A stretch of 51,570 bases of DNA, from the NCBI RefSeq assembly GCF_001904725.1, contig NZ_MRCE01000042.1:1-51570 (forward strand), in the 5' to 3' direction. The stretch is from Phormidium ambiguum IAM M-71 (GTDB taxonomy: Bacteria > Cyanobacteriota > Cyanobacteriia > Cyanobacteriales > Aerosakkonemataceae). The notes under the pieces were generated by a model. That model had not been told where the DNA came from. It was given only the letters and a program-made list of their open reading frames with translations, and ran no database searches. The stretch's first letter is position 1. Every line of letters starts with the position of its first letter. The position numbers and the translations under genes were made by a program. Positions 19,294-20,903 of this stretch are shown piece by piece.

Positions 19294-19476
19294 ATGGGAC
19301 ATCTCAACGGTACTACTTCTAATTCTTTACTTTTGGCATTTTTAATTATTGCTGGCCAAACTTTTATTTTCCAATCAACAGCTAGTGCTCAAGAAGATTT
19401 CCAAAAAACAGTTAGTCAAAGTCATATCATTCAACCTTTAGCAATAGCTAACGATCATCGAGGTAGTGGACGGTAA
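19294..19476 (+). CDS. patX: PatX, RGSGR-containing HetR-inhibitor precursor peptide
   Basis: Small secreted precursor of 60 aa. Residues 11-27 are hydrophobic, followed by an AxA site (A30-S31-A32) compatible with signal-peptidase cleavage before Q33. The last six residues are HRGSGR, containing the RGSGR pentapeptide that in PatS, HetN and PatX binds HetR and blocks its DNA-binding activity. It lies directly upstream of hetR in the same direction. A GGAG lies about 11 bp before ATG 19294. In heterocystous species such peptides set the spacing of heterocysts; in non-heterocystous filaments the hetR-patX pair is retained with less certain function. Identification rests on the exact C-terminal motif, the export signal and the neighbour. 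Confidence 0.92.
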   Translation: MGHLNGTTSNSLLLAFLIIAGQTFIFQSTASAQEDFQKTVSQSHIIQPLAIANDHRGSGR

Positions 19477-19696
19477 ATTTACTGAAACTAGTTGATATTT
19501 TACCTAAAGATTTTGCGCTCACGTCAGCTTTTATTAGCTATATTTTCTGAAAATAGTGGTTTTATTTGTGTGAGGTTGATTGTTGTTGAATATTTGTTGT
19601 CTGACGGGCTGGGTGAGAAATTAGCAATGTTAGGTCATAAAGTACCATCCGACCTTTAGGTAAAGATAGATTAGGTAAACTTATACTTTTTTCCAT

Positions 19697-19740
19697 AACT
19701 CATGTCAAAATCAAGTTGACGTGGGTTTTTAACTTTTTTT
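19697..19740 (+). terminator. Intrinsic terminator between patX and hetR
   Basis: A 12-bp stem with two G-T pairs, left arm AACTCATGTCAA (19697-19708) and right arm TTGACGTGGGTT (19716-19727), with a 7-nt loop, is followed by TTTAACTTTTTTTTT. It lies 220 bp after the patX stop and 264 bp before hetR. It should end most patX transcription, or an unannotated RNA from 19477-19696, before hetR. Confidence 0.75.
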
Positions 19741-20003
19741 TTCATTTTTAGCCCGTATAAGTGGTTTTTATGGCTACAGATCGGCTAAATTTTGGAAAGC
19801 AGGGTGGCTCTTAAACTTGACTTAAAACTGCTAATAGCAGAAATTATGGGTGCAAAAGGGTAATCATTCCATTGGTGATGGATTATAGCGTCAGCTAATT
19901 GCTCGATCGCATGAGGCGCAAAACAGCTAGTCTATCCCCAGCAGTGGCTTGATGCTCGAAAAATCGGGGTTTTAAATTTATGCGATACAGTCTCTCCTAA
20001 CTT
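19741..20003 (+). promoter_or_regulatory. Probable hetR promoter/leader region
   Basis: These 263 bp lie between the terminator and the hetR ATG, so hetR transcription should start here. A CTGCT-AAT-AGCAG dyad is at 19828-19840, just after a TTGACT (19818-19823) that could be a -35 element; the matching -10 is poor. I see no GTA-N8-TAC (NtcA) box. The sequence just before the ATG has no purine-rich ribosome-binding site. Placement is by elimination. Confidence 0.4.
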
Positions 20004-20903
20004 ATGAGTAACGATTTAGATCTGATCAAACGCCTCAGTCCCAGTGCAATGGATCAGATCATGCTTTATCTGGCGTTTAGCGCCATGAGAACAAGCGGAC
20101 ATCGGCACGGAGCGTTTCTGGATGCAGCAGCCACAGCTGCCAAATGCGCCATTTACATGACTTATTTGGAGCAGGGTCAGAATCTCCGCATGACTGGTCA
20201 TTTGCACCATATTGAGCCGAAGCGGGTGAAGGCGATCGTTGAAGAAGTCAGACAAGCTCTCACTGAGGGCAAACTGCTAAAGATGTTAGGTTCTCAGGAA
20301 CCGCGTTATCTGATTCAGTTTCCTTATGTTTGGCTGGAACAGTATCCTTGGATGCCTGGTCGATCGCGCATTTCTGGTACTAGCCTCACCTCGGAAGAAA
20401 AACGGCAAATCGAGGAAAAATTACCTCCTCTACTACCTGATGCCCAACTGATTAACTCTTTTCAATTTATGGAGTTAATCGAATTTCTCCACAACCGCTC
20501 TCAGGAAGATTTACCTTCAGAAAGGCAACTCCCTTTGAGCGAAGCTTTGGCAGAACACATTAAACGTCGTCTAATTTATGCTGGCACAGTCACCAGAATA
20601 GATTGTCCTTGGGGTTTACCTTTTTATGCCCTCACTCGTGCTACTTACTCGCCTTCTGACGATGAGGAACGCACTTACATTGTGGTGGAGGACACGGCAC
20701 GGTATTTCCGGTTAATGAAGGGGTGGCAAGAACGACAGGCAAATGTCATGCGTGTTTTGGAAGAGTTGGATATTCCACCCGATCGCATGGACAGAGCGAT
20801 GGAAGAATTAGATGAAGTAATCCGCCAATGGGCCGATCGACATCATCAAGAAGGCGGTCAACAAATGGTTTTACAAATGGTGTTTGGCCTTAAAGACGAT
20901 TAA
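20004..20903 (+). CDS. hetR: HetR, heterocyst/multicellularity master transcription regulator
   Basis: Protein of 299 aa, the same length as the Anabaena protein and colinear with it from MSNDxDLIKRL onward. Residues known to matter in the Anabaena protein are present: Cys48, Ser152, Ser179, Glu71, and in the Hood domain Arg223 with the LEELD pentapeptide at 252-256 that contacts RGSGR. HetR is a dimeric DNA-binding regulator whose activity is inhibited by RGSGR peptides. Its immediate upstream neighbour encodes such a peptide (PatX). The presence of all PatS-contact residues implies the ligand pocket is intact. Whether it drives heterocyst formation here is not decided by this window. Confidence 0.98.

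Follow-up and report, generated by a model that had tools for sequence, protein, structure and literature searches.

What would a short peptide gene ending in RGSGR be doing directly ahead of hetR in a cyanobacterium that probably forms no heterocysts? The question arises from a stretch of 51,570 nucleotides (nt) of Phormidium ambiguum IAM M-71 (contig NZ_MRCE01000042.1), hereafter the window, where an open reading frame (ORF) for a precursor of 60 amino acids (aa), patX, lies upstream of hetR on the same strand. Such a pairing is already published and the window adds another example of it, and the functions of patX and hetR in the absence of heterocysts have been termed a mystery (PMC11298460). 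Our reading, to which we give a probability of roughly 0.8, is that the window holds a family-conserved patX-hetR module of a probably filamentous, nif-bearing cyanobacterium, working as the peptide-HetR circuit proposed below.

The pair in the window

Translation of patX (19294-19476, plus strand) gives a precursor whose C-terminus reads NDHRGSGR and then stop, with HRGSGR as residues 55-60 and its codons (19456-19473, plus strand) at the extreme end of the ORF. No other RG[ST]GR occurs in the six frames of the window, and a search of the genome for RG[ST]GR followed by stop, with CGN arginine codons only (AGR versions left out), returned a single match, at patX, the reversed control also returning one; neither this pattern nor sequence matching revealed a second PatX in the genome. 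Together with the comparison with relatives, the translation bears out the 60-aa ORF ending in HRGSGR that had been described from the letters of the window (the sequence-only reading).

After a gap of 527 nt follows hetR (20004-20903, plus strand), encoding 299 aa. The protein matches the NCBIfam equivalog PRK13245 over its full length with 597 bits (cut-off 489) and both Pfam HetR domains, the Hood domain PF18460 with 145.6 bits, and its alignment with the solved HetRs 4hri and 3qod covers the full length. The residues C48, S152, S179, R223 and the LEELD of 252-256, all of them named by the sequence-only reading, are found in place, as are R250 and D270; we take their functional and pocket roles to be those of Anabaena HetR. 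By these matches the protein is a HetR of equivalog-level identity that looks intact. Among HetRs with a named organism the nearest is from Phormidium sp. LEGE 05292, at 95%, followed by Argonema antarcticum at 94% and Microseira wollei at 86%. No second HetR was found in the genome (7.41 Mb, 90 contigs), where the searches for HetR and PatX homologues thus gave one match each, both at the window locus.

Conservation of the pairing and of its promoter box

HetR is present in all ten genomes of the family that were examined, and in every one of them, the window included, a short RGSGR ORF lies 484-916 nt upstream. Across the family the ligand is retained while the remainder of PatX diverges; the window precursor and that of its genus-mate are identical at 32 of 59 aligned residues, with a nonsynonymous divergence (dN) of 0.34 and a synonymous one (dS) of 0.68. 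In a wider sample an RGSGR ORF stands upstream of hetR in 78 of 86 genomes outside families f2, f6 and f7, and two of the eight genomes lacking it have less than 1 kb of upstream DNA. At the loci L157, L199 (genus g140), L129 and L156 no PatX ORF could be recognised within the 3 kb ahead of hetR, and other genera of their families do have one.

These counts come from a compared set in which hetR loci, genomes, families and genera carry the labels L, G, f and g, and in which loci L011-L016 were equated, through identical matches, with genomes G006, G002, G004, G007, G008 and G009. Upstream regions were obtained for 98 of 195 HetR-bearing genomes. The 149 deduplicated hetR loci had PatX within 1.5 kb in 77 cases, farther away in 2 and none in 70, and an enlargement by 20 extra regions, 17 of them with PatX, brought the PatX loci to 94; the compared loci share kinship, and the counts are not independent. 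An ORF counted as PatX if it had an ATG start and RG[STAN]GR, and divergent forms would therefore escape. For most loci of heterocyst formers the search extended 3-5 kb upstream of hetR, a range in which patX is not expected; in L136 and L151 it is found at 5.7-5.9 kb, and no patX was found in four other such loci searched to 9 kb upstream.

A second conserved element is the hexamer TCCTGA (19235-19240, plus strand), which lies 59 nt ahead of the patX start codon and differs by one base from the DIF1 motif TCCGGA; the exact DIF1 sequence is absent from the window. Elhai and Khudyakov (2018) reportedly described TCCGGA upstream of patX, within 69 nt. The pattern TCC[TGC]GA occurs 20-72 nt before the patX ATG in 77 of 77 loci, and at 57-69 nt in 72 of them; away from patX, 114 of 2895 bins from these regions contain it. 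Its form is TCCTGA in 73 loci, TCCGGA in three loci of the Microseira group and TCCCGA in L098; after the enlargement the box was present in 93 of 94 loci, L193 being the one without it. Except for one base, the window box agrees with the DIF1 box that has been proposed for patX genes (PMC7377430, PMC6133370), and its spacing of about 60 nt is that of the known PatX-HetR systems, which have TCCGGA where the window has TCCTGA. An extended version of the box matches the genome exactly at patX alone, and with up to two mismatches at 16 sites, compared with 6 for the reversed control. No regulon sharing the box is claimed; two of the other matches, inspected by eye, had no known developmental gene nearby.

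Being small and without a Pfam or NCBIfam match, the 60-aa ORF might have been taken for a product of chance. The single RGSGR-stop match in the genome, the RGSGR ORF in all ten family genomes, the excess of dS over dN and the box at a near-fixed distance all speak against this, and we rejected chance, whose likelihood we regard as negligible, as contradicted by the conservation of ORF, ligand and box. The patX ORF is credible because an RGSGR ORF recurs in the ten family genomes and the box in the 77 loci; on this comparative evidence it is a PatX-type precursor conserved beyond chance.

The proposed circuit and its host

The gene order, the intact HetR, the conserved ligand and the conserved promoter box are observed at this locus. 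Onto them we would place a circuit in which HetR regulates by binding DNA and its Hood domain accepts a peptide of the RGSGR type. Transcribed from the DIF1-like promoter, PatX would be exported, probably by means of its hydrophobic N-terminus; trimming would be needed at the N-terminal side alone, because the ligand is already the C-terminus of the window precursor. An HRGSGR-like peptide would then reach HetR in the same or in neighbouring cells and lower its DNA binding, the likely output being filament-level control (filament breakage, distribution of nitrogen fixation) instead of heterocyst spacing. Export, cleavage and HetR binding are here proposed by analogy with Nostoc, where PatX is exported, PatP cleaves it, and HRGTGR binds and inhibits HetR (PMC12756182).

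The pair resembles the PatX-HetR systems of filamentous cyanobacteria in its RG(S/T)GR precursor with a hydrophobic N-terminus encoded near hetR (PMC7761841, PMC12756182, PMC11298460). In this line, Leptolyngbya BL0902, a strain without heterocysts, also has patX followed immediately by hetR, although it has three hetR-like ORFs and lacks a nif cluster (PMC11298460), whereas the present genome combines nif genes with a single hetR. The window PatX shares with PatS of Anabaena, an inhibitor of HetR, the RGSGR-containing peptide; PatS is shorter, at 17 aa, and cytoplasmic cleavage of its precursor is likely (PMC12756182), whereas the window PatX has 60 aa and a hydrophobic N-terminus.

Could the organism nevertheless form heterocysts, with the module spacing them? 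The presence of hetR, patX and a nif cluster would suit such a view. That cluster, found in the genome on contig C6, comprises nifH, nifB, nifS, nifU, nifD, nifK, a fused nifEN, nifX and nifV, each scoring higher than its curated cut-off; for the fused nifE-nifN gene (L091:3218-5941, G000 contig C6) the score is 1442 bits, with 1229 as the cut-off. No HetP-family match was found in this genome, its genus-mate G006, G001 or G005, compared with one to four matches in each of the six scanned genomes of f6, the family that includes Desmonostoc. The nearest named relatives belong to Phormidium, Argonema and Microseira, presumably non-heterocystous. Moreover, filamentous species that form no heterocysts also carry hetR and patX (PMC7761841, PMC11298460). 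Heterocyst formation in this organism is, from its gene content, unlikely, and the view that the module spaces heterocysts seems to us very improbable. As for the complete ligand-receptor unit of the sequence-only reading, a PatX-type precursor does stand beside an intact HetR, but "complete" overstated the case, given that neither this genome nor its genus-mate has a HetP-family match.

Several points weigh against the proposed circuit and its setting. The HetP family was found in 11 of 15 genomes scanned, not only in 6 of 6 from f6 but in 5 of 9 from the window's own family (G002-G004, G007 and G009, with G008 unscanned); HetP is therefore not diagnostic, and its absence says little against heterocysts. 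Secondly, the hydrophobic N-terminal segment of PatX (residues 12-26; 19327-19371, plus strand), a probable export signal with a best 12-residue Kyte-Doolittle mean of 2.17 from residue 12, is not preceded by any K or R; of the signal peptide assigned from the letters, the hydrophobic stretch is borne out. Thirdly, two AxA sites are present, at residues 30-32 and 50-52, either of which might be the one named by the sequence-only reading, and they are candidate cleavage sites only: AxA is poorly conserved, the former site is unmatched in all nine other family members, and an AxA no more than 8 residues ahead of the motif occurs in just 5 of 77 loci. The site at residues 50-52 (19441-19449) directly precedes the ligand and has a counterpart in four of the nine other family members (L011, L012, L013, L095); it may serve as a trimming signal.

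Finally, genetic work on the non-heterocystous Leptolyngbya BL0902 is reported to have found the effects of PatX on gene expression largely independent of HetR (PMC11298460). In that strain, for regulated-gene groups 2 and 3, the double deletion resembles the patX deletion and is opposite to the hetR deletion (PMC11298460), which would suit a scenario where the pair is real and PatX acts mainly through a non-HetR target in non-heterocystous strains. We consider this scenario unlikely, though a more serious contender than heterocyst spacing, and retain the peptide-HetR circuit.

Leaders and precursor forms among relatives

Between the box and the start codon of patX, single-strand folding detects an imperfect inverted repeat (19249-19287, plus strand) around the conserved TTAGAAAC (19269-19276), with -11.4 kcal/mol and a z of -1.4 in the window. 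Across 93 loci the leader fold has a mean z of -1.67, with 58 below -1; it is weaker in the genus-mate (z -0.7), and the Microseira group is without it (z 0.1 to 1.0). The repeat contains a conserved G-N-A and a TAGAAA, the latter near its centre, and may act as an RNA hairpin or as a DNA operator. If the box were the -35 element, as is DIF1 in Anabaena (PMC6133370), the 5' arm of the repeat would be untranscribed. By eye, the arms appear to co-vary in some loci, and an NtcA-like GTA-N8-TAG can be seen among the conserved bases, which may be a candidate reading. The hetR leader (19770-20003, plus strand) is also conserved within the family, nhmmer giving E 7e-43 for the genus-mate, from 2e-16 to 5e-10 for five further genomes of the family and from 0.014 to 1.2 for the Microseira group; elsewhere among the upstream regions searched, no match was convincing (two, with E 2.5 and 5.5, lay far from hetR). 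This segment probably corresponds to the hetR promoter and 5' untranslated region.

The precursors themselves are diverse. The motif is the exact C-terminus in 18 of 77 PatX, among them those of the window and its genus-mate, and the others carry 1-18 further residues. Three Microseira-group genomes encode a PatX of 31 aa without a strongly hydrophobic N-terminus. Short forms of this kind, of 29-32 aa, are those of L014, L015, L016, L088 and L180; four of the five end in RGSGR, and they resemble PatS. Over the 94 loci, the motif closes the precursor exactly in 6 of the 9 cases where fewer than 30 residues precede it and in 12 of the 85 where more do.

Another form is marked by cysteines. Five family members (L012, L013, L095, L098, L099) have one cysteine 2-3 residues before the motif and another 2-4 after it, a short tail that the window PatX does not have; close flanking pairs are seen in these five and in L153. 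After residue 22, the 77 PatX contain no cysteine in 50 cases, one in 8, two in 19 and never three; random placement, kinship ignored, gave a mean of 7.5 pairs and never reached 19 in 20,000 trials. Once similar C-termini were collapsed, 14 of 65 had two cysteines, 7 one and 44 none. The 19 pairs are close on both sides of the motif in 6 cases, far before plus after it in 5, both after in 5 and both before in 3 (L026, L139 and L179), these last being perhaps unrelated to the motif. Such a pair could form a disulfide loop around or after the ligand.

Moreover, 28 of the 94 PatX ORFs hold at least two ligand units: two in 3 ORFs, three in 9, four in 10, five in 3, eight in 1 and nine in 2. Tandem forms occur in all 22 sampled f28 genomes (9 genera), 14 of which were added after such forms had already been noticed in that family, in 4 of 28 f31 genomes (genera g82 and g131), and in L032 and L070; congeners of g125 differ in copy number (4, 5, 5, 9 and 9). 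Examples upstream of hetR are L191 and L192 with 9 copies, L146 with 8 and L145 with 5, and tandem PatX is also seen in L070 and, with 4 copies, in L174-L177. In eight pairwise comparisons of arrays, 145 of 147 motif positions matched, compared with 214 of 438 spacer positions. The residue preceding the motif, over all units, is H in 74, Y in 54, D in 25, N in 8, W in 7, F in 5, E in 4, S in 2 and A in 1. Assembly error is unlikely because several arrays sit on multi-megabase contigs (L167, L183, L187). Since one whole sampled family and two genera of another carry arrays, their distribution suggests that tandem PatX arose at least twice. The yeast alpha-factor precursor also carries several copies of one short signal; the sequences are unrelated, and release of the bacterial units is putative. 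In the open literature we found no report of tandem or cysteine forms of PatX, and Elhai and Khudyakov (2018), which lay outside the search, may describe them.

Altogether, the window supplies a clear patX-hetR pair from a cyanobacterium with nif genes and probably without heterocysts, and TCCTGA about 60 nt ahead of a short RGSGR ORF offers a handle for finding patX elsewhere. In this regard, 12% of surveyed genomes, a Leptolyngbya strain among them, were listed with PatP and HetR and no PatX (PMC12756182), which raises the question of whether surveys undercount tailed or tandem forms. That PatX is a polymorphic prohormone family, with single-copy forms, tandem forms of 2-9 X-RGSGR units, cysteine-pair forms and forms with a weakly hydrophobic N-terminus, is a proposal for which we see the balance as even; if true, how much signal each transcript yields and whether carboxy-side trimming is required would be evolvable settings of one receptor circuit.
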